From positions 1 through 24,613 of IMG/VR virus record IMGVR_UViG_3300046028_003273: 24,613 nucleotides of DNA. The stretch is one strand, 5' to 3'. This DNA is from a virus. Below are positions 1,127 through 13,895 of this stretch, one piece after another (the first letter of the stretch is position 1; every line of letters begins with the position of its first letter). Position numbers and translations under genes: made by a program. The notes under the pieces were generated by a model that ran no database searches, was not told where the DNA came from, and worked only from the letters and a program-made list of their open reading frames with translations.

Positions 1127-1531
1127 ATGGCTATTTCACTTAGCGATTTAAACGTAGAAGCTCAATCAGAAAAACCTTATGAATTTGAAGTTGTTGATGA
1201 TAACAATGGAAAAGGTACAGGTATCTTCTTATCAGTATTGGGTTCACATAGTAAAACAATCAGTGATTTCGTTGCAAAAACTTTAAATGCTCAACGCAGA
1301 GTTGCTGCTTTAAAAGCTCGCAAACGTGATAACAAAGATACCGACTATACACCAGTAGAAGATGATATTGACTTTTCTATTGAACTTGCCGCTATCCGTA
1401 TTGTAGCATGGCGTGGTATTACTGAAAACTTTAGTCCTGAAAATGCACAATTATTGTGCCGTACTAATCCAATCATCAAGCAACAAGTAATTGAAGCTTC
1501 TGATGACGTAAAAAATTTTACGAAGGGTTAG
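1127..1531 (+). CDS. Tail assembly chaperone, short (unshifted) form
   Basis: This 134-residue protein occupies the position of lambda gpG, between the tube gene and the tape measure gene. In that system the short form coats the tape measure protein during tail assembly and is absent from the finished virion. The start at 1127 is chosen because of a good AAAGGA ribosome binding site just upstream. The protein is polar and charged, with an acidic segment around residues 20-30 and a Lys/Arg-rich stretch near 60-70. There is no membrane segment or enzyme motif. Its last codons carry the slippery site 1513-1519, and the stop TAG (1529-1531) lies inside the 5' arm of the stimulatory stem. Function is inferred from gene order plus the frameshift signal, which together are diagnostic. 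I do not recognise the exact sequence family. Confidence 0.85.
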   Translation: MAISLSDLNVEAQSEKPYEFEVVDDNNGKGTGIFLSVLGSHSKTISDFVAKTLNAQRRVAALKARKRDNKDTDYTPVEDDIDFSIELAAIRIVAWRGITENFSPENAQLLCRTNPIIKQQVIEASDDVKNFTKG

Positions 1532-1887
1532 TTCAAGGTCTTATTAAATATGCTGAGAATGAACTAACCCTATCGTCTAAGCAGAAAGATGGATGCTCAT
1601 TGAGAGAGCATTTAGTAAGAGTCATGGAAATGACTGGACAAATCCCACATGAATTACAGCCTGTCGAGGTTAGCGACATTGTGATGTACATGTGGGAGTG
1701 GTTCTTGCAATTAAATGCAGCACGTCAAAATAATGGGATGGCAATCAGCCCATTGAGTTATTCCGAAATACTCGCGTGGGTTACTTTAATGCAAATCAAC
1801 ATATCCCCGTTTGAAATCACCGTTATAAAAGCATTGGACAGTATGTTCATTAATCACATTAACAATCAAAGCAAGGAAGATAAATAA
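1127..1887 (+). CDS. Tail assembly chaperone, -1 frameshift fusion (gpGT-like), 253 aa
   Basis: Ribosomes that slip back one base at 1513-1519 read 131 codons of the first frame (to 1519). They then continue from base 1519 in the -1 frame to the TAA at 1885-1887, adding 122 residues. The -1 frame is closed by TGA at 1504-1506 just before the slippery site, so the two frames overlap only in the stretch that holds the heptamer. The second frame has a TTG at 1600 but no convincing ribosome binding site there, so it is best read as the downstream half of the fusion. By analogy with lambda gpGT, the extra domain should recruit tail tube subunits to the chaperone-coated tape measure. The gene ends in a TAATG overlap with the tape measure start at 1887. 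Confidence 0.88.
1513..1519 (+). promoter_or_regulatory. Slippery heptamer A AAT TTT for -1 frameshifting
   Basis: In the zero frame the sequence reads GTA AAA AAT TTT ACG, so A AAT TTT fits X XXY YYZ exactly. After slipping, the two tRNAs read AAA and TTT. The overlapping A AAA AAT at 1510-1516 also fits the pattern, so two adjacent slip sites exist. The stem at 1524 starts four bases downstream. Confidence 0.88.
1524..1571 (+). promoter_or_regulatory. Frameshift-stimulating stem-loop
   Basis: AGGGTTAGTTCA (1524-1535) pairs perfectly with TGAACTAACCCT (1560-1571) across a 24-base loop. That is twelve Watson-Crick pairs with no mismatch, starting four bases after the slippery heptamer. Distance, strength and place all fit a frameshift stimulator. 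I found no convincing loop-to-downstream pairing for a pseudoknot, only four-base matches. Confidence 0.87.
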
Positions 1888-4800
1888 TGAGTACTGAAGG
1901 TTCAGTTGGCGTAGAAATTAAAATTACCGATAATTTTGATAAAATTGTAACTGGTGTATCTAATGTTGTCACTGCCATTACCACATTAGACAGTAAAATA
2001 GGAACAGCAACTCGAACTATTAATGTAAAGGCATTATTAGTTACAACGGACTTTGATAAAAAAATTGCTGAAGTTGAAGCAAAAGAACATACCATCAAAA
2101 TAAAAGTCAATGCTCAAGAAATAGAAGCAATGGTTGCTGGGGCAGTTACTGGTGGCACACCGCATACTATTCGCACAACTGTTGACCTAGCTAATGTAAA
2201 AGAAATAATCAATACTACATTAAACGCTGAACATCAAATCAATGTGACAGTTAATTCAGCTGGACTTGAAACAAAAGTTGCAGCTGCTATGAAAAACAAA
2301 TCATACCCAGTTCAAATAGACTTCACTCCAGATTCAGCAGTGGGTAATTCATTGTCTGGAATTTCATCAGCTATGAAAGATATAACTAGATTAACAGGTG
2401 AAATAAACAAATTAACAAAAACAGCATTGGGTGATTTAAATGCTCAAATGGCTACTTATTTTAATGACCTTAATCATATTATTGATTTAACAAATAAAGT
2501 AGCGGCTACTGTAGAAACAAATGAAAATAAAAAAGCTGAAGCTGCAGATAAAGCAGCTAAAAGAATGGAAGATGCTGCTCAAAAATTAGCAGACAAAACC
2601 GCAGAACTTGAAAATAAAAAAGCAACTCAAGCAAAAAAATCTGCAGATGATGCAACTGCTTTAGCTGAAAAAATAAAAACAGATACAATAGCTAAAGCTC
2701 AAGAATTAGCAGACAAACAAAAAGAAATTTCAGCTAAAGCCGAAGCTGCTATTTTAAAAGATAAACAAGAATCATTTGCTAAATATCTTAAAGGTACTGA
2801 AGCTGTAGTTGAACAAAGAATTGGAATTGAAGAAAAACAAGTTAAAGCATTAAAAGATATTAATCAAAAAGTAGAAGAAGATTTTAAAAATAGAGTTAAG
2901 ACATTTTTAGATGGACAAAATAGTATAGTTGAAGGATATAGAAAAGAAATTCAAGCTAAACTTGAAGCAACAAAAGCTGAATATGATTTATTAGAAGCAA
3001 GAAAAAAATCAGCAATAGAAGCTAAGATTACACAAAGTAATCTAGGTGCAGGTACATTCCAAAACAAAGGTCTTACTGGTTCTAAAACACAAGGGATGGA
3101 TACAGGTTTTCCAATTGCATTAGGTGGAACAGGTAAACCAAGTAATCAAGTAGAGCAAGCAGTTAGTGATGCTGCAAATATGGATAAGCAAATCGCTGCT
3201 TTGCGTAAATATAATGCTGAATATGAACAAGCATATAAAATGCAATATGATATGGAAAAGAAAATCCACAATGATATAAATGCAGCGTATGCTGAAAACA
3301 CAGCGCGTGATAGAAAAATGTTCCTAGACCGTGAAGCTGCGGAAAATGAAAACGTAGCTCGTGAAAGACGATACATACTCGATTATGAAGCTGCTTATAA
3401 AATGCGCTATGATATAGAAAAAAGAAACTATTTGGATATACAGGCAGCATACGAAGAAAACACAGCTCGTGACCGCAGAATGTTCTTAGACCGTGAAGCA
3501 GCCAATAAAGAAAATTACGAAAGAGAAAAACGTAATTATATGATGCTTAGAGATGCTTATAAAGAAAATGAAAAGATCGATAAGCAAAAACGTATGGATA
3601 GAGGTAAGGCTATTTATAGTGGTGATGCTATTATGACATCACGTCAAGATATAGCAAACCTAAGAGAATATGTGGCAGAACATACAAGATTACATGATAC
3701 GCTTGGTATGGTACAAAATTCAATAGGTATGGTGACTAACGCTTTAATGCAAATGGGTGTGTATCTGTCCGCTAGACAACTTATGGATTATGCTGACCAT
3801 TGGATGCATTTCATATCAACTGTGAAAGTAGCAATGCATTCAATGATTGATACAATGCAGCGTTTATCAGGAGAAACTGATATATTGACAAAAGACCAAC
3901 AAAAATTATTAGTTGAGTCTAAAATAGATGAAGTGTTTAAAATATCACAAGAAACTAGAACATCTATTGAAGGAACAGCTACGTTATTTGGTCGTATGTC
4001 AAGAGCAGCTGAAGCAATGGGCATGAGTAATAAAGTTGCTATGACATTGACAAAAGAACTTGGACAAGCTTTGATGATTTCTGGTTTAAGTACTAATTCA
4101 GCTCGCGGTGCATTGTTGCAGTTAGAACAAGCATTGGGTGGTGTGATTGTTCGTGGTCAAGAATTTAAATCAGTCAATGATGGTTTACCTATTGTAATGC
4201 AAACTATTGTGAAACATTATAATGAAGCTAAAGTTTCTATTGAAGCATTAAATCTAGGCTATGAAAGAGGAACAGAAGCTTACGAAAAATATATGGCAGC
4301 TAATAATAAAGTGCGAGCATTGACTATGCCAGAAGGTCGTACTTTAATGCTAAAACAAGAAATGATGTCAGCTGTTTCAGCAGAAGCTTTATTGCTTGGT
4401 CAAAAAGAATTAGATGAGTTATCAAAAGATGTTGAAAAAACATTTGAACAAAGTTTCAATTATATTGGAAATGCTTTTTCAAAATATATAGGTACATTGA
4501 ATGAAGCTTCAGGTGCAAGCAAATCATTTTCTGAAATTGCAAAAGTTATTGGAGATAATTTTGATGCAATTGGTAATGTTGTTCTAGGAGTAGGAACAGC
4601 ACTAGGTACTTATATGGTAGCAATTGGTTTAGCAACGGTTGCTACAAAATTATTTGCTGGTGCATTATCAACAAATATATATGCAACAACGCTTGCAGTG
4701 ATAGTTGCGCTTGGTGTGGAAATGTATAGTTTTGCACAAACATCAAAAGATACAACAAGTGAAGCAAATGTGGCTTGGCAAGCATTTTGGAAAACATTTG

Positions 4801-7800
4801 ATGAATCAGATAACCCAATGCTTACAATATTTAAATTAATTGCTGCTGAATTTGAAGGATTAAAAAATACAGTACTTTGGATGGTTGATAAAGTAAATGA
4901 ATTAAAAGGTAGTGTTGCTGAGGATAGCATGCTTGGTAAAATTGGCAGCGGTGTGTCAAAAGTATTGCACATAGCATCACCTGTTGCTGGTGCAGCATAC
5001 GATGCATTATCAGGAGCTAACTCTGAAAAAGGAAGTTTTGGTGACAGTTATGACAAAAATAAAGAACTAATAAAACAAAATCTTAAAAATGAAGAACTAC
5101 AAACAAAAGCCAAGCTATTAGGTATAGATAAAACTTTAGAAGGTTTAGAAAAAAGAATAGAAGCTGAAGAACAAAGACTTAAAGTAGTTGGTATGAAAGA
5201 AAGCACGAGTAGCTTTGGTTCTATTGCTATGGATAAAGTAGCAAGAGATGCTGCACATGATGCAATGTCAAATAGAGATAAATATATAGACACAGCTATA
5301 AATAAATTTCAATCGAGTTTTATTACAGAATTAGGTAAGTCTGGTACTAATGAAAAAAAGATAACGCTTGATGATTTATTAAAAATGGAACAAAAAAATC
5401 TTAGAGCTACTGAACCCAATACAACACTTTTGGCTATTGTATATGATGAGTGGAAAAAACAAAAAGAAGCTTTAGTTTCTATAGAAGGAAAAGCATACGA
5501 TTTAAAATTAGAGCAAGATAAAATTAATGCTGCACAAAAAGAGCAAGATACTTTTAAATCTAATTTACCAAATATTCAAGAAGGTAATCTTGTTTATATG
5601 GAAGGTCAACAATCTAAAATAGAAGATACTTATAAAAAATTAGGTGTAACTCTTAAGAAAACAATGGTTGAATCCTATGTTGAAAGTGTCAATGATATTA
5701 ATACAAAATCAGCAGAAATTAAACCACGCGTTGCTCCACCATCATCTAAAGAAGTATTAGCTCTTATTGAAAAATACTCAAAAGAATTTAACGTAGATTC
5801 AAATCTAGTTAAAGGTGTGATTCAACAAGAATCCGCTTGGAAACCAAATGCACATAATAAATCTGGTGCAAGTGGTTTAATGCAAGTTATGCCAGCTAAT
5901 TTTTCTGCTTATGGTATTACTGACCCAAGCAACGTAGACCAAAATTTAAAAGCTGGTATTAAAATATTATCTGAAGATATAAAATCTTTTGGTGGTAATG
6001 TTAAATTAGCATTAGCTGCATATAATTATGGTGGTGGTAATGTAAGAAAAGTAGATAAAGACATTTCAAGAATGCCAGCTGAAACTCAAAATTATATTCC
6101 AACAGTAATGGGATACGCTAAAGAATTCGCTGCAGGAAAAACTGGTCGTTTATCAGCAGAAGATAGTGCAGACCTTAAAGAAAAAGCAACTGAAGTTAAA
6201 AAAGTAATGACAGAAGCAATCACACCAGATTTTAGTACTCTATCACAACCATTGAGAAAATTAATGGATGAGGAATTAAAACTAGTAAATGAAATGCAAG
6301 CTAAAAAAGATACCATTAAAACAAAAGAAGAACAGCAAAATTTTGAATTAGATAAAAAACGTTTAACATCGATAGAAGGTGAAATAACTAGACAAGTAGA
6401 TTTAGAAAAAACTACAGATGCTAAATTTGAAAAAGAAATTCGTCAAGAAATGTCAATAGATAAAATTAGAAATAAGTATGGCGATTCGATGAAAAATTTC
6501 AAAGAAGAACAACTGCAATCAGCAAAGATGGCATCTATGATTTCTGAGAAAGGTGCGTATGCAGTTGACGAATTAAATCAAATGGCTGCTGCTAATTTTG
6601 AGAATGCTGATGCAGCAAAACAACTTGAAGCTAATTTACGTGAAATTCTTGACGCAGAATTAAAACGCTCAGTCTATAATGAAGATGCAAATATTCAAGC
6701 ACAAAATGAACTTGAAAAGAAACAAAAAATATTAGGCATAGTAGAACAAATCAACGATGCATCTGCTGCTGCAAAGCAAAGTGAAAAATTAGGTAAAGAT
6801 GCTGAGTCGTCTGTTAAGAATGTGACCGCTAATGCCTATAAACAAGTTGATAAATTAAAAGCTGAAAACCAATCTATCTTTGCTGCTACTGGAACAGGTA
6901 AGGCATTTGCTGTTGCAGATAAACGCATGGAACTTGATAAAGCTGTAGGTAATATTTTAGACCCAGAAGCTAAAAAGAAATTCCAAGCAGAAGCAGATGC
7001 CTTGTTAAAATCAATGCAATTAAAACTAGATGTGGAATTGCGTGTGGCTAACATTGAAGAATTTAAAACAGGTTTATCTACGTTAACACAATCATTAGGT
7101 GAAGACCTTGGTAAAGTTGGTGAAGCTCTTACAGGTATCGCTAGTCATTTTGCTGACATTGCTTTAAGCAATGAAAAGCTTGCTGGACAAGCGGAGATGG
7201 AGAAAAATGCGTATGAAGAAAAACTTAAAACAATTACAGGTACAGATGAAAAAGCTAACAAACAAAAATTAGAACTTACAGAAGCTTACAATAAAGAAAA
7301 AGAAAAAATTGAACGTAAAGGAACTAAAGCACAAATAGATGGATTTGCAAATATTGCTGGCGCAGCTAGTACAATGTTTGGTGAACAAACTCGTGGTCGC
7401 AAAGCATTGCATGCTTTAGAAATCACATTACACGCTACAAGCATGGCAATGACATTAGTTGAAACAGCGGCTAACGTGGCTTCTGGTGCGGCTAAATTCT
7501 TTGCACAATCTGGTTGGGCTGGTTTTGCTGGTGTGGCTGCTATGTTAGCACTTATGGGTACATTGGGTTATGCGATAGGTGGTGGAGGTGGTAGTAGTAA
7601 ACCACAAGATACTTCTGCACCAGAAACAAAATCAACAGGTTCAGTATTTGGTGATAAAGAAAGTAGTTCTAAATCAGTAGAAAACATTGTGACTACTTTA
7701 AATGATATTCACTATAGAGAATATGATGCATTACTTTCTATTGGTGATAGTTTTAAAATGCTAAGTAAAGATGTGAATGGTGCAGTTATTCTTGCAGTTA

Positions 7801-10800
7801 ATCAACAAGGTGGTTTTGCTGGTTCAACTAAACAAGCAAGCGCATCTGCATTAAACCCTGCTGGTTCAACTGCAATGATTGGTGCTGGTTTAGCTGGCTC
7901 TGTGGCTTTAGGTGCTACAGGTGCATTATCACAGGTAGGTTTGCTTGTTGGTGCGCAACTTGTGAATGCTGGGGCAACAAGCTTAGGCATAGGTATGTCA
8001 ACTGCTGCAGCATCTTCTGCTGCAATGTCAACAACGGTAGGCACAGCATTGGGAGCAGGTAGTGGTGCTATGGCTTCTGCATTAGGTGGAGCTGTATTAG
8101 GCTTAGCTGGTGGTTTAGTATTTGCAGCATTACAATATGGTCTTGGTAAATTATTAGGTATTGGTAAAACTAAATTCGAAGTAATTGGTGCTGGTATTAT
8201 GACAAAAGCAACTGATGTTATTATTGACGGTGCTGCAAAATCATTGATGGTTTATGATTATTCAAAAATCAAACAAACTACAAAAGGTTGGTTTAGTGAT
8301 ACAGTGAAAATTTATGATATAGTTAATGGCATAAATTCAAATATGACAAGTACGTTCACATCTATATTTGTAAATTTCAAAAATATAATTGGTGGAATGG
8401 CTAAAGAATTAAACATATCTGAATTTTTTGATAAAGCATTCACAATACCTAAAATGAAAATATCATTAAAAGGTTTAAAATCTGAAGAAATAAATAAAAA
8501 AATAACAGACACTCTTAACACGGTGATGGATGATATAGTAACCAGTGTACAAAATGGTTTCTTAACTCAATTCCAACGTATGGGCGAAGGGATGCTTGAA
8601 ACATTCAATCGTGTTGCAACAGATGCACTTGTAGTAAAAGCTACATTTAAAAACATGGGAATGGACATATCAACAACTGGCTTTGGGTTAATTACTTTCT
8701 CAGAAGCATTAGTTGACGTATTTGAATCTTCAGCATCAGCGAAAGATGGTTTGAAAAACTTTGTAAAAACTATGAATGACCTTTATAAAGTTGCTACAAC
8801 AGGTGGTCAAAAAACAGCTGATACTGCTGGACAACTTGCTGCTAAAATAACAGCTTTAAATACACAATCTACAACAATAACTACAAAATCAACAGGTATT
8901 GCTTTAACCTCTAATTTCGCTAATGATGTTGCAGATTTAAAAGCAAGCACTACTGCGGTTGTTGCTGATGTAGCCAAAGCAGCAAAAGCATTGCCAGCAG
9001 CAAATTTGAAAACACTTGCAGCTGATGTAAATAAAGATATAAGAGGAAAAGATTTCTCCAACGATGTGTTACTAAAAAGAATTGGCATGGCATTTGGTAC
9101 AGATAGTGATAGATATAAAACAGCGGAAAAAAATCCAAATGCTTTAAAACTTACCACAGCTGATATTTTAAAAGTAACAAAATCAGATATTTTTGACAAT
9201 ACTCAAGCATCTGTATCTCTAAGTGCTTATAGAAACTCATCAAGCGGTGAATCACAAAAAATAGCAGATAAAACATTAGCTTATGCCAAAGCATTAGACG
9301 CATCTACATTAGTTTTAACAAAACAAGAAACGGCTATAAATAATTTACAAAAAGCAACCGATGTGGATAATCCAGCTGGTATGGATAGATATGCAACAGG
9401 TATGTCAACAAATACAGTTGCTAATCAAACAATTATTTCTGGTTTAATTAATAAAGTGATAAACGATAAAACACCGCCAAATACATCAGCACTTATGTCC
9501 AAAACAATAAGTGTAACTCTACCAACATTACCAACAGACCCAACTGAATTGACACAAGCAGTTGTATTAGCCGCACAAAAAGAACTTACAGCTGCAATAA
9601 ATACAATGGGTAATATAACAAAAGGGTTAACATCATTACAAAATCTAACAACTCCAACTACTGCATTAGCTGATTTATCAAAATTAGATAAAAAAGGTAG
9701 TATTGATTGGTTGCTGAAAGGGAAAAATTCTCAATTTAACGAAATGAATATAACAAAAGAGCAATTAATGCATCTTACTACTAGTCAATTGAATGCAAAT
9801 GTAGCTGAAAAAGTCATGGGTGAAATTAGAGATAAGACTGGTGCAGTTACTGGATATGACCAAACAAAAGCTACATATACACAAGATAAAACATCAGGAC
9901 CTTTCTATACAGAACTTGCTAAAATCATTAAGCATAATGATGAAGCTGCTGAACAATTAAGAGCTATAAAAAAATCACCAACAGGTGTTGCTGATTTTGT
10001 AACAAAAACTTTTGGTACTGCAGAAACATTAGGTGGAAAACCTAATTTTGATAAACTTGTTGAACAGGTTAATGATATTGTAAAGATATCAGATGCTGTA
10101 GCAAGAGATGATGCATTTGCTTCGCTAAAAGGTTCATATACTGACTTAAACAAAACTGTTGCAACCTATCAATCAGATTTTGCATCAATAGCACAAAATT
10201 TTGGTGATACATTAGCATTTACAAAATCAATAGCTGATATTCAAGAATCTTATTTATCAAAAGTAACAACTGAGCTTGAAACAAAAAATCGTGCTTATGC
10301 TGAATCATTAAAAGACCTTAATAGTGAAACAGATATTTCTAGTTTGTTAACAAAACAAACTACAACAGCTGTGACAACATGGATAGGAACATTAAATGAA
10401 GAAAGAAAAGCGTACTTAGGTATAAAAGAAGTTACTAGTGATGTTGTTGATGAGCAAGGAAATCAAGTAAAAAGTCTTGCTATTACAGAAATGGCATTAA
10501 AAGCATTTGACAATAGCGTGACTTCTTTATCAGGAAGTTTACAAGCAGCGTTGACAGCATTAAAGAATTTCCAATCAAGCATATCTGATTGGGTAAGAAA
10601 TCAAAAAACTACTAATGTTGGAAATACTAAATCACAAATGGATGAAGCAAGTAGACAGTTTGATACATTAATGTTAAAAATTAAAAACCCAGCTGTATCT
10701 GCTGAAGATAAAAATTTAGCTATGTCAAAAATCACAGGTTCAGCTGATGCATTATTAAATGCTGTTAGAAACTATTATGGTACATCTAAAGCTGGTGCAG

Positions 10801-13800
10801 ATATTACTTCTGAAATAATAAAACAAATGGACACATTACCTGATTCATTAACTACACAAGAATTGATGTTAGGTGAGTTACAAAAAATTAAAGATAACAC
10901 AGCAGTATTACCTACATTCGTAGGTATGACACAAGGTAGCACTGATACCATTGATACATTATCAAAAGCAATTGCAGCTGCAATGGCATTAGACAAGTCT
11001 AATCCATCATTAGCTAATACAGCTATATTAGATGCTAAAGCAAATATACAATTAGTTTTACAAAAAGCTGTTGTAGGTGCTACAGGTGCAGATGCTGTAT
11101 TCTTAAATAATCTAGTTTCAGCTATCGGTGGCGATAAAGGTTTATCGGCTACTATTGACGCAGTAGTAAATGCTAAGCTTGGAACAACAACAACAGAAGA
11201 TGTGCTTAATACTTTGAAAACATCTTTTGCTGGATTAGAAGTTGAAATTGAAAAAGTTAAATTGAATCCAACTGAAGCTAATATCAAACAGATGCAAGCT
11301 GATATTGATAACTTCAAAGTTTTAACTATGAAAATAAATGGTAACGTGGAATCATTAAAACTCAATCCCGATGACCCTGTATTAAGAAGACAGTTGCAGG
11401 AATCACTAGATGAGATGAATGATTTTACAGCTAAAGTAACTGGTATAGATATTACAAGTACAGCTAAACGTTTAGCTGTTGGTGATTTAAAATCAACATT
11501 TGCTAATAGCACTTTCAAAGTTAATCCGTCTGTTAGTAATGGAAGTATTATTGAAATGATGTCTACATTACGTGAAAAATTTGCAGCCCTTATTGCTAAA
11601 GTAAATGTAACTGATAATCCTGTGGCAACGGCTACTTTAAAAGAAAGCTTTAGAAAATCATTCGGTACTATTGATTCAAAAGTATTTACTTCTCTTAATC
11701 AAGATAGCAAACTAGCAGTATTAAGTGCAATGGATGCTGCATTTGACCATATTGAAGCTACTGTAGACAGTACATTAAATGAGTCTAAAAAAGCAACTGT
11801 ATTAACATCACTCAATCGTGCATTTGGTATTATACCTTCAGTAGTTACTGCAAATATAAATGAATCAGCTAGAATCGCAGCAGTTGAAGCTTTAAAAGTA
11901 TCGTTTAAAACAATTACCACTGGTATTGCTCCAATGGTTAATGAAGATTTAAAACTCAAAGCACAAGGGATATTAGATAATGCTTTTGATACTGTAGAAG
12001 CTACTATTAATAGCACTGTTGGTGAAGCTACTAAGAAAACTACATTCAATGCATTGAAAAATGCATTTTCTACAATAACAGCTTCTATTAGTTCAGATGT
12101 TAATGAAACATCACAGGGGCTTGCTTTAACTGCATTAGAAAAAGGATTTAAAGCAGTTAATGCTAACATAGTGAGTGATTTAGATGACGGTGCTAAATAT
12201 TCTGTAGCTAATGAACTAAAAACAGCATTTGGTAAAATGACTGATATTATTTCAGTAGAACTAGACCCAAAAACTATGGACAAAGCATTGACTGCTATAG
12301 ATAGAGCTTTTGGTAGTATCGATGTATTAATTTCATCTAATGTTGAGCCAAAAACAAAACAAGCTGCCATAAAAGAAATAACAGCTGCATTTGGTACTAT
12401 CAAAACATTGGTTGAAAGCGATGTTGATGAGGAATCAAAATACAATGCTATTGCTGCATTAGAACGTGGATTTGCTACAGTTGAAGCTGTTGCCTATGCT
12501 AGTATCTCACCTGCATCTAAAACAGCAGCAGTTAATAGTTTGAAAAATGCTTTATCTGGAATTCAAGCCTTAATTAATGATGTAGCATTGAATCCAACTG
12601 ATACTAATATCAGACAGCTTAATGATAAGATTAAAAAGTTTGGTAATCTAACTGCACAAGTTGAAACCACTATCAGTGGAATAGCGATATCAACTAGTAC
12701 TGAAGCTCAATTAGCTCGTGATATTTCTGCAATAGATGATTTAATGGCTGATGTTGGTTTAGGTGTTAAGAGTGGTGCAGCAACTGATTTGAATTCTCAA
12801 ATAGCTGCTCTAACTAGTGCTATAAAAAATATTAAAGTTACTTTAAAAATTGATTTTGATGCTGTATCTGATGAAGCTGTTTCAAGAGTTGAGGGTATTC
12901 AAGATATATCACAAGACCCAATGGTATTTAAAATTCAAGTTCCACAAATAAGTACAGCTACTGTTGATAATTTAACAAATGCTCTTAAAGAATCAACAGC
13001 TGAAGCTGCTAAAATGATTACAACTTTTGATTCTATGTTATCCAATGCCCAACAAGTTCAATCAGCTATTGATATATTTGCCAATGGTAATACAATGATT
13101 GCTGCTTATATACCTCTTGCTGGTGAAGTTAGAGGTAGAGAAGGTTATCAAAAATTAGCAGACCTTACTGAAATCGAAGCTCAAATGCAGTTGACTACTA
13201 CAGAGAAACAAAGACAAACTTATACTGATTTTGGACAAGATAAAATAAAAACAGAAAAGGATGCGTTGAAACTTGGTTCACAACTTTATTATGATTTACA
13301 AACAGGAAGTAGTAAATATAATATTGCATTGAGTTATGTTGAAGGTTACAACTCAACACATACACCGGATATTCCACAAAAGGTTCATGTATTAGATGGT
13401 GCAAAGAATGAAGAATCGTATGCTGCTGGTGCAGTGTTAGGTAAAAATCCAAAAACAGATGCGAATAATGCATTAGCTGCTTATAACAGAGCATTGGCTA
13501 TTATAAAATCTAGTTCTGATGAATACTATAAATTAATTGGCTATAATCAAGGTGGACAAAGCCCTTCATTCTTCGCAATGGGTGGTGCATTTACAAATGG
13601 CATAGTTAACACACCTACTGCATTTAACATGGGTGTTATGGGTGAAGCTGGTCCAGAAGCTATTATGCCATTAGTGCAAACAAGTGGTGGTCTTGGTGTT
13701 CGTGCAATACCTGCTGCTAATGACAATAACAATAATTCTGAAGAAGAATTACGTGAAGTTAAAAAACAAAACCAAATCTTAATGGCACAAAATGCAATAT

Positions 13801-13895
13801 TGCAAGAAGGGTTCAAACAACTAATTAGTGTTAATACTAAACAAGCTGATAGCCTAGATAATATTGAAACAACAAATCGGAGAGCTGCTGCATGA
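1887..13895 (+). CDS. Giant tail tape measure protein with SLT lysozyme domain, 4002 aa
   Basis: This protein sets tail length and is ejected ahead of the DNA. The start at 1887 overlaps the chaperone stop (TAATG) and has AAGGA upstream. Order of parts, by residue: about 212-385, Ala/Lys/Glu-rich coiled coil; 445-570, seven tandem 18-residue helical repeats; about 584-780, a region like the TMP N-terminal domain (TRTSIEGTATLFGR, QLEQALGG, RGQEF); 897-952, hydrophobic; about 1285-1415, an SLT/GH23 lytic transglycosylase domain with catalytic Glu1315 in VIQQESAW, GLMQVMP and AAYNYGGGNV, which should open peptidoglycan during entry; 1817-1902 and 1988-2093, Gly/Ala-rich hydrophobic segments; 3240-3564, twelve tandem 27-residue repeats; about 3896-3930, the common tape-measure C-terminal motif ending GEAGPEAIMPL; last 60 residues, a coiled coil. 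At 4002 residues it is far above the usual 700-1500. Confidence 0.95.
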   Translation: MSTEGSVGVEIKITDNFDKIVTGVSNVVTAITTLDSKIGTATRTINVKALLVTTDFDKKIAEVEAKEHTIKIKVNAQEIEAMVAGAVTGGTPHTIRTTVDLANVKEIINTTLNAEHQINVTVNSAGLETKVAAAMKNKSYPVQIDFTPDSAVGNSLSGISSAMKDITRLTGEINKLTKTALGDLNAQMATYFNDLNHIIDLTNKVAATVETNENKKAEAADKAAKRMEDAAQKLADKTAELENKKATQAKKSADDATALAEKIKTDTIAKAQELADKQKEISAKAEAAILKDKQESFAKYLKGTEAVVEQRIGIEEKQVKALKDINQKVEEDFKNRVKTFLDGQNSIVEGYRKEIQAKLEATKAEYDLLEARKKSAIEAKITQSNLGAGTFQNKGLTGSKTQGMDTGFPIALGGTGKPSNQVEQAVSDAANMDKQIAALRKYNAEYEQAYKMQYDMEKKIHNDINAAYAENTARDRKMFLDREAAENENVARERRYILDYEAAYKMRYDIEKRNYLDIQAAYEENTARDRRMFLDREAANKENYEREKRNYMMLRDAYKENEKIDKQKRMDRGKAIYSGDAIMTSRQDIANLREYVAEHTRLHDTLGMVQNSIGMVTNALMQMGVYLSARQLMDYADHWMHFISTVKVAMHSMIDTMQRLSGETDILTKDQQKLLVESKIDEVFKISQETRTSIEGTATLFGRMSRAAEAMGMSNKVAMTLTKELGQALMISGLSTNSARGALLQLEQALGGVIVRGQEFKSVNDGLPIVMQTIVKHYNEAKVSIEALNLGYERGTEAYEKYMAANNKVRALTMPEGRTLMLKQEMMSAVSAEALLLGQKELDELSKDVEKTFEQSFNYIGNAFSKYIGTLNEASGASKSFSEIAKVIGDNFDAIGNVVLGVGTALGTYMVAIGLATVATKLFAGALSTNIYATTLAVIVALGVEMYSFAQTSKDTTSEANVAWQAFWKTFDESDNPMLTIFKLIAAEFEGLKNTVLWMVDKVNELKGSVAEDSMLGKIGSGVSKVLHIASPVAGAAYDALSGANSEKGSFGDSYDKNKELIKQNLKNEELQTKAKLLGIDKTLEGLEKRIEAEEQRLKVVGMKESTSSFGSIAMDKVARDAAHDAMSNRDKYIDTAINKFQSSFITELGKSGTNEKKITLDDLLKMEQKNLRATEPNTTLLAIVYDEWKKQKEALVSIEGKAYDLKLEQDKINAAQKEQDTFKSNLPNIQEGNLVYMEGQQSKIEDTYKKLGVTLKKTMVESYVESVNDINTKSAEIKPRVAPPSSKEVLALIEKYSKEFNVDSNLVKGVIQQESAWKPNAHNKSGASGLMQVMPANFSAYGITDPSNVDQNLKAGIKILSEDIKSFGGNVKLALAAYNYGGGNVRKVDKDISRMPAETQNYIPTVMGYAKEFAAGKTGRLSAEDSADLKEKATEVKKVMTEAITPDFSTLSQPLRKLMDEELKLVNEMQAKKDTIKTKEEQQNFELDKKRLTSIEGEITRQVDLEKTTDAKFEKEIRQEMSIDKIRNKYGDSMKNFKEEQLQSAKMASMISEKGAYAVDELNQMAAANFENADAAKQLEANLREILDAELKRSVYNEDANIQAQNELEKKQKILGIVEQINDASAAAKQSEKLGKDAESSVKNVTANAYKQVDKLKAENQSIFAATGTGKAFAVADKRMELDKAVGNILDPEAKKKFQAEADALLKSMQLKLDVELRVANIEEFKTGLSTLTQSLGEDLGKVGEALTGIASHFADIALSNEKLAGQAEMEKNAYEEKLKTITGTDEKANKQKLELTEAYNKEKEKIERKGTKAQIDGFANIAGAASTMFGEQTRGRKALHALEITLHATSMAMTLVETAANVASGAAKFFAQSGWAGFAGVAAMLALMGTLGYAIGGGGGSSKPQDTSAPETKSTGSVFGDKESSSKSVENIVTTLNDIHYREYDALLSIGDSFKMLSKDVNGAVILAVNQQGGFAGSTKQASASALNPAGSTAMIGAGLAGSVALGATGALSQVGLLVGAQLVNAGATSLGIGMSTAAASSAAMSTTVGTALGAGSGAMASALGGAVLGLAGGLVFAALQYGLGKLLGIGKTKFEVIGAGIMTKATDVIIDGAAKSLMVYDYSKIKQTTKGWFSDTVKIYDIVNGINSNMTSTFTSIFVNFKNIIGGMAKELNISEFFDKAFTIPKMKISLKGLKSEEINKKITDTLNTVMDDIVTSVQNGFLTQFQRMGEGMLETFNRVATDALVVKATFKNMGMDISTTGFGLITFSEALVDVFESSASAKDGLKNFVKTMNDLYKVATTGGQKTADTAGQLAAKITALNTQSTTITTKSTGIALTSNFANDVADLKASTTAVVADVAKAAKALPAANLKTLAADVNKDIRGKDFSNDVLLKRIGMAFGTDSDRYKTAEKNPNALKLTTADILKVTKSDIFDNTQASVSLSAYRNSSSGESQKIADKTLAYAKALDASTLVLTKQETAINNLQKATDVDNPAGMDRYATGMSTNTVANQTIISGLINKVINDKTPPNTSALMSKTISVTLPTLPTDPTELTQAVVLAAQKELTAAINTMGNITKGLTSLQNLTTPTTALADLSKLDKKGSIDWLLKGKNSQFNEMNITKEQLMHLTTSQLNANVAEKVMGEIRDKTGAVTGYDQTKATYTQDKTSGPFYTELAKIIKHNDEAAEQLRAIKKSPTGVADFVTKTFGTAETLGGKPNFDKLVEQVNDIVKISDAVARDDAFASLKGSYTDLNKTVATYQSDFASIAQNFGDTLAFTKSIADIQESYLSKVTTELETKNRAYAESLKDLNSETDISSLLTKQTTTAVTTWIGTLNEERKAYLGIKEVTSDVVDEQGNQVKSLAITEMALKAFDNSVTSLSGSLQAALTALKNFQSSISDWVRNQKTTNVGNTKSQMDEASRQFDTLMLKIKNPAVSAEDKNLAMSKITGSADALLNAVRNYYGTSKAGADITSEIIKQMDTLPDSLTTQELMLGELQKIKDNTAVLPTFVGMTQGSTDTIDTLSKAIAAAMALDKSNPSLANTAILDAKANIQLVLQKAVVGATGADAVFLNNLVSAIGGDKGLSATIDAVVNAKLGTTTTEDVLNTLKTSFAGLEVEIEKVKLNPTEANIKQMQADIDNFKVLTMKINGNVESLKLNPDDPVLRRQLQESLDEMNDFTAKVTGIDITSTAKRLAVGDLKSTFANSTFKVNPSVSNGSIIEMMSTLREKFAALIAKVNVTDNPVATATLKESFRKSFGTIDSKVFTSLNQDSKLAVLSAMDAAFDHIEATVDSTLNESKKATVLTSLNRAFGIIPSVVTANINESARIAAVEALKVSFKTITTGIAPMVNEDLKLKAQGILDNAFDTVEATINSTVGEATKKTTFNALKNAFSTITASISSDVNETSQGLALTALEKGFKAVNANIVSDLDDGAKYSVANELKTAFGKMTDIISVELDPKTMDKALTAIDRAFGSIDVLISSNVEPKTKQAAIKEITAAFGTIKTLVESDVDEESKYNAIAALERGFATVEAVAYASISPASKTAAVNSLKNALSGIQALINDVALNPTDTNIRQLNDKIKKFGNLTAQVETTISGIAISTSTEAQLARDISAIDDLMADVGLGVKSGAATDLNSQIAALTSAIKNIKVTLKIDFDAVSDEAVSRVEGIQDISQDPMVFKIQVPQISTATVDNLTNALKESTAEAAKMITTFDSMLSNAQQVQSAIDIFANGNTMIAAYIPLAGEVRGREGYQKLADLTEIEAQMQLTTTEKQRQTYTDFGQDKIKTEKDALKLGSQLYYDLQTGSSKYNIALSYVEGYNSTHTPDIPQKVHVLDGAKNEESYAAGAVLGKNPKTDANNALAAYNRALAIIKSSSDEYYKLIGYNQGGQSPSFFAMGGAFTNGIVNTPTAFNMGVMGEAGPEAIMPLVQTSGGLGVRAIPAANDNNNNSEEELREVKKQNQILMAQNAILQEGFKQLISVNTKQADSLDNIETTNRRAAA
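3219..3596 (+). repeat. Seven tandem 54-bp (18-residue) repeats inside the tape measure gene
   Basis: Units begin at 3219, 3273, 3327, 3381, 3435, 3489 and 3543. Each encodes 18 residues on a pattern of D..AAY.EN..RDR..FL. Eighteen residues make exactly five alpha-helical turns, so the array should form one continuous straight helix. At a higher level, 3219-3380 and 3381-3542 are copies of a 162-bp block (three units each) that still match well at DNA level, for example AGACCGTGAAGC in both, showing a fairly recent duplication. Confidence 0.85.
5736..6128 (+). other. SLT (GH23) lytic transglycosylase domain coding segment
   Basis: This in-frame part of the tape measure gene encodes roughly residues 1284-1415. 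The domain shows the SLT order: catalytic Glu1315 in VIQQESAW, GASGLMQVMP, then LALAAYNYGGGNV and NYIPTVMGYA. All the usual SLT hallmark positions are present, so the domain should be active against peptidoglycan. Confidence 0.92.
11604..12578 (+). repeat. Twelve tandem 81-bp (27-residue) repeats inside the tape measure gene
   Basis: After a first copy at 11604-11687 (one residue longer), eleven units of exactly 27 residues run from 11688 to 12578 with no gap or insertion. The shared pattern is roughly s.[vl]n[ed].[st]k..al.aL..aFgti.a.i. A Phe (Leu in the last unit) stands in the centre of each unit, and Asn/Asp with Glu/Asp or Pro comes near its start. Bases have diverged between units, so the array is visible only in translation. 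It encodes residues 3240-3564. Confidence 0.9.

Follow-up and report, generated by a model that had tools for sequence, protein, structure and literature searches.

The locus considered here raises the question of what holds a tandem repeat in a phage tape measure protein to exactly 27 residues per unit while the sequence of the units diverges, the ring spacing of the surrounding tail tube or the fold of the unit itself. The window (the whole stretch of DNA that was analysed, 24,613 nucleotides of the IMG/VR record IMGVR_UViG_3300046028_003273) contains the gene in full; residues are numbered in its product, and handles beginning with L denote relatives.

The tape measure gene and its 27-residue array

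1887-13895, + strand: open reading frame of the tail length tape measure protein (4002 aa), assigned by PHROG tape-measure families and Pfam SLT

The reading frame matches the PHROG tape-measure families 3336, 339 and 7740 (E 7e-42 to 8e-34), and an SLT transglycosylase domain lies at residues 1293-1391 (Pfam SLT, 4.5e-26). The gene adjoins an upstream Phage_TAC_18 gene and the genes 3′ of it are conserved with those of other tape loci. Upstream, two tail assembly chaperone frames overlap (window 1127-1887) and contain a canonical A AAT TTT heptamer as slip site at 1513-1519, which is in the correct frame for -1 slippage of the lambda G/GT style. Judging from these letters, the chaperone genes directly upstream of the tape likely carry a -1 frameshift, and the TTG start listed at 1600 in this region is probably not used. 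No cysteine occurs among the 4002 residues. We surveyed 49 non-redundant related tape measures, and the window tape is the longest among the 40 full-length members of this set (range 1199-4002). As phage P23-45 has a tape of 5002 residues and a tail of >800 nm, the tail of the window phage should be roughly 600 nm long if its tape is extended, at 1.5 Å per residue. The same protein holds a second array with a period of 18/36/54 residues (window 3207-3584, residues ~441-566, with period peaks within ~361-600), which is charged, rich in Tyr, Phe and Met and of the classic 11/18 coiled-coil type. A 27-residue period is confined to the block described next. N-terminal tape arrays of relatives have units of 22, 33, 40 and 44 residues (L029, L008, L060 and L033).

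The array that concerns us lies in the last third of the protein and consists of the following parts.

11154-11441, + strand: upstream unit-related helices with irregular spacing (residues ~3090-3185; PSSM, 3-unit HMM, F-to-F spacing)
11442-11603, + strand: two degenerate in-phase units (residues 3186-3212 and 3213-3239; PSSM z 3.4 and 3.7 at phase 0, ungapped in the ortholog, AlphaFold)
11604-12575, + strand: core array of 12 units of exactly 27 residues (residues 3240-3563; lag-27 autocorrelation, leave-one-out PSSM, unit HMM)
12576-12662, + strand: downstream longer helix unit (residues 3564-3592, NDVALNPTDTNIRQLNDKIKKFGNLTAQV), out of the 27-residue phase (sequence reading; AlphaFold helix directly after the array)

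A BLOSUM62 self-comparison of residues 3240-3564 gave a value of 1.06 at lag 27, against -0.59 ± 0.11 for shuffled sequences (2000 shuffles, maximum -0.23), which places the observed value ~15 SD above the null. The only other high lags were 54, 81, 108 and 135, all of them multiples of 27. A leave-one-out profile placed each of the 12 units at phase 0, with scores exceeding those of shuffled sequence by 4.5-6.8 SD, and a one-unit HMM recovered the 12 units (i-E 8e-8 to 5e-10). Self-comparison, profile and HMM thus agree on the significant 27-residue period that a preliminary description, made from the letters of the window, had asserted. That description counted eleven units of 27 residues after a first unit that was one residue longer; the strict period stands, but the longer unit is a boundary effect. 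A 28-residue first unit was rejected since the 325 residues equal 12 x 27 + 1 with N3564 left over behind the last unit, which gives 12 exact units, or 14 with the degenerate ones. The degenerate units at 3186 and 3213 score above the 99.9% shuffle quantile in exact phase, and the whole in-phase block measures 14 x 27 = 378 residues (11442-12575), under 10% of the tape. Among the irregular helices upstream, the one at residue 3095 has a PSSM z of 4.9 but is not in phase, and the 3-unit HMM gives an i-E of 4e-4. Between phenylalanines, the flanks are spaced by 29 and 37 residues upstream of the block and by 56 downstream.

Amino-acid identity between the 12 units averages 25% and base identity is 37-58% (0.45/0.53/0.43 by codon position); Tandem Repeats Finder did not detect the array at the DNA level. 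The claim that residues and bases diverged while the phase was held is borne out by these values. The unit consensus is S-S-[TD]-[VL]-[ND]-[EP]-x-[SAT]-K-x-x-[AV]-L-x-A-L-x-x-A-F-G-T-I-x-A-x-[IV], with Phe at position 20 in 11 of the 12 units and Leu in the twelfth. The recurring aromatic had been described as lying in the middle of each unit; it does recur, but at position 20, about two thirds along the predicted helix.

Conservation of the array in related phages

The same array is present in the contigs L002, L003 and L004 at 97-100% identity. The L002 tape is a mosaic, much of which is ~25-57% identical to the window tape in aligned blocks, but from ~residue 3100, array included, it is 97-99% identical. 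The step is sharp (~30% to 97-99% at tape residue ~3000-3100), it persists through the C-terminus, and the next gene is 98% identical. From this step in identity we read a recent recombination inside the tape gene, in which the part with the array was exchanged.

A diverged ortholog, L097/L100, has a tape of 4148 residues with an array that is 54% identical, has 14 units and aligns with no gap. Over the 378 residues there are 172 substitutions and 0 indels, where 7.5 indels are expected (P about 6e-4) from the rest of the gene (95 gaps per 2193 substitutions between the window and L097/L100 tapes). The dN/dS in the array is 0.13-0.32. Selection on the spacing, as had been proposed, is thus upheld by the missing indels and by the dN/dS. 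Ortholog unit pairs are 58% identical and paralogous units 23%, from which it follows, by this comparison of sequences, that the array is older than the split of the window and L097/L100 lineages and has not been homogenised since. None of the 12 units differs between the orthologs at F20 or A12, and I27 is kept in 10 of 12; the exposed positions 10 and 14 are kept in 3 and 2 of the 12. The whole tapes of the two phages differ by 146 residues with the array remaining constant. We therefore rejected the array as a tuner of tail length within the clade, since it seems not to follow the change elsewhere in the tape.

The conservation of length is wider than the array, as the following segment shows.

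11028-13169, + strand: length-frozen segment of 714 residues (3048-3761) with the array inside, the longest ungapped run against the L100 tape measure

In this run there are 343 substitutions and 0 indels, where 14.9 are expected. As the freeze covers non-periodic flanks, the 27-residue period by itself does not, on the alignment, account for it, and a constraint beyond the repeat fold may exist.

All array-bearing relatives are metagenomic contigs, and the polymerase is ~43% identical to those of CAjan-like phages, which we take to be Seuratvirus. A tblastn search of the array against named phages and plasmids gave no convincing match, and genome scans for host or prophage relatives found none. 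A PDB sequence search with the array returned chance matches only. Among Pfam and NCBIfam profiles, run on the array or the C-terminus, there was no match for the array; PF05017, presumably the Pfam TMP repeat, did not match it at E up to 10, and all matches of that search were below the curated cut-offs.

The slot in relatives and the predicted unit structure

Relatives share the domain that precedes the array.

10527-11277, + strand: conserved domain just upstream of a variable slot (residues 2881-3130; blastp E 1e-13 to 4e-29, alignment, L092)

A homologous domain is common to L059, L072, L092, L017, L014 and L008, and what lies behind it varies. L059 has ~13 exact 31-residue units there (tape residues 2083-2485), in which a block of 124 residues (4 units) was recently duplicated. 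As far as the slot, L072 shares 75% and L092 81% identity with L059, but in the slot itself both have only a short GGT-rich stretch and no array; L059 against L072/L092 is thus a natural presence/absence set for the array. The slot holds a 40-residue repeat in L014 and a 7-residue T/S/G repeat in L008. The 27-residue array is absent in L011, L017, L018, L019 and L023 despite a homologous tube protein (27-37% identity). Repeats were found in 18 of the 49 surveyed tape measures, with a period of 27 only in the window clade; the other strong periods among the 49 are 31, 33, 40, 44, 46, 54, 55, 59, 60, 67, 71, 74 and 78 residues, plus a 7-residue one. In the corresponding region of their tapes (residues ~1093-1410), L023 and L049 have an insertion of two copies of a 46-residue strand-like repeat that is absent in the close relative L018. 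Since relatives have other repeats or none at the slot, the regularity most likely comes from folding of the unit and not from tube spacing. The preliminary description had taken free variation of unit length among relatives as grounds against a selected spacing; the lengths are constant inside each array, as that view needs, but differ between lineages.

AlphaFold2, run on residues 3090-3620 with a shallow input alignment of 4 near-identical rows (2 of 5 models confident), predicts core units of 21-23-residue helices with 4-6-residue loops at a pTM of 0.68. The pLDDT is 78-95 across most of the core array and mostly near 90. Of the degenerate units, the second is spanned by a helix and the first is of low confidence. 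A separate 108-residue job gave a matching helix/loop pattern at lower confidence. By this predicted secondary structure the array is built of repeated helix-loop units, as an alpha-solenoid would be, and the model agrees with the solenoid that had been put forward as the alternative to a match with the tube. In Foldseek the prediction best matched two designed repeat proteins, the flat helix-turn-helix repeat 8ugc (E 2.5e-3, prob 0.99) and DHR79, with low TM-scores (0.19-0.24), a weak match that backs the fold type and not its details; with the 108-residue model Foldseek found generic helical bundles only. Hydrophobic power is divided between harmonics 7 and 8 of 27 (3.857 and 3.375 residues) and is near zero at 3.5 and 3.667, and this spectrum shows no heptad or hendecad periodicity carried through the array. 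As 27 residues make 7.5 turns, a continuous helix would place the conserved face on alternating sides. A continuous coiled coil was therefore rejected, because the helix phase resets in every unit and the power is off the heptad and hendecad spacings. With a helix cap at position 5 and frequently Pro or Glu at position 6, each unit begins a fresh helix.

What sets the period

We favour, with moderate confidence, the reading that the array is a lineage-specific helix-loop domain of alpha-solenoid-like type whose phase is fixed by its own fold and not by the tube. On this view 14 helix-loop modules form a block that is old and restricted to the lineage, and that lies towards the tail tip, in the C-terminal third of a very long tape. 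In each 27-residue module a ~22-residue helix would restart at an N-cap, with N/D/S at position 5 followed by E/P at position 6, and would end in a 4-6-residue loop; L16, F20, I23 and I27, together with alanines at 12 and 19, would give it a broad apolar face. The length of the module would be constant because helix, cap and helix-helix packing, the last of which we infer from the model, must stay in step, as in helical solenoids. Tandem duplication would have created the block, in a slot at which different repeats come and go among relatives, and its unit number and length were then frozen. Inside the virion the block would run along the tube as an extended stretch of the tape: a lumen of 36-40 Å occupied by three or six tape chains (PMC12494034, PMC9022992) is too narrow for a folded solenoid, which rules that fold out for the virion. 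A single chain could adopt the predicted compact helical stack before assembly or after ejection via the tail tip.

The preliminary description had named a match to the symmetry or rise of the tail tube among the possible causes and saw in the array a model for tape/tube register. In the form weighed here, one 27-residue unit spans one tail-tube ring and the period is selected to match the ring rise. The arithmetic fits, 27 x 1.5 Å giving 40.5 Å, which is among the ring rises of 38.5-42.8 Å measured in other phages (T5 40.6, lambda 42.8 and SPP1 38.5 Å, PMC8718954; P74-26 40.25 Å, PMC10034513), and in HFTV1, tape residues 2-316 span 11 rings, or 28.6 residues per ring (PMC12494034). Deletion of part of a repeat in TP901-1 often left mutants without intact particles (PMC5099701), and the 14-unit block is itself frozen in length. 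Against this, the slot in relatives is filled by 31- or 40-residue repeats, by short motifs or by nothing, phages with homologous tube proteins do without the array, the freeze runs over 714 residues past the periodic part, and the flanking units are spaced differently. Caps and prolines also interrupt the helix in each unit, which makes 1.5 Å per residue throughout doubtful. A period that reflects the symmetry or rise of the tube is hence unlikely, and a period near 27 should not be taken as tube register before relatives have been checked. In a variant that we hold to be quite unlikely, the block is a true register segment in which each of 14 rings close to the tail tip would take up one helix-loop unit, with loops that adjust to the ring height; loops of ~5 residues here and ~9 in L059 might take up the difference, such that 27- and 31-residue units both correspond to one ring. 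If true, such a segment would be a match between tape and tube that is visible in the sequence.

We give very little credence to a ladder on which the tail assembly chaperone, coating the tape ahead of tube polymerisation, would dock at each unit. It would suit the chaperone genes with their likely -1 frameshift just upstream, the invariance of F20 between orthologs and the match of aromatic spacing in tape and chaperone proposed for phage p2 (PMC5099701), but the array occupies less than a tenth of the tape, the chaperone genes of L072 and L059 are related although L059 alone has an array, and an 11-residue repeat of TP901-1 could be replaced by alanines (PMC5099701). The array could also be a neutral leftover of tandem duplication that lengthens the tape and stays in phase merely from scarcity of indels, as the many periods in the survey, the recent block duplication in L059 and the TP901-1 repeat deletions that mostly just shorten the tail (PMC5099701) would allow. 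The dN/dS of the array, the 0 indels where 7.5 were expected and the identical 14 units in two diverged phages whose tapes differ by 146 residues make this very unlikely.

Comparison with known tape measure repeats

To our knowledge, few tape measure proteins have been seen at atomic detail. Repeats in tape measures are already known, and the 27-residue helix-restarting array, read here as a self-folding domain, is new among them. Those described in TP901-1 and p2 have 11, 18 and 40 residues with Trp/Phe markers, and tape repeat deletions shorten tails in proportion (PMC5099701). Like them, the window array is made of helical repeats in tandem that are marked by an aromatic and belong to the tape measure protein of a siphophage (PMC5099701), and it shares with the 11/18 aromatic repeats an aromatic at a fixed place (F20, in 11 of 12 units and unchanged in the ortholog). 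It differs in that its period of 27 is neither 11 nor 18 nor an in-phase sum of them, its helix restarts in each unit whereas theirs follow a continuous heptad/hendecad pattern, and its unit number is frozen between diverged phages. The HFTV1 tape likewise lines the tail tube, at ~28.6 residues per ring, but is a continuous hexameric coiled coil of ~340 residues, and is not known to contain a helix-loop repeat array (PMC12494034). The nearest fold matches of the predicted monomer, 8ugc and DHR79, are similar in their regular helices of similar length and short turns; they are, however, designed proteins without homology and with a low TM-score, and the oligomeric state of the native tape differs. 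A natural counterpart in the survey is the L059 array, which occupies the same slot behind the homologous domain with a strict period and, judged by its sequence, helix and loop. Its unit has 31 residues, a longer loop and an unrelated sequence, and it carries the recent 124-residue duplication and is missing in relatives that are 75-81% identical. L059 with its array set against L072 and L092 without one lets one ask how many angstroms of tail each residue accounts for in a tape that is not a continuous helix. A fixed-length module that is not a coiled coil, present in equal number in two diverged phages, is likewise natural material for this question.
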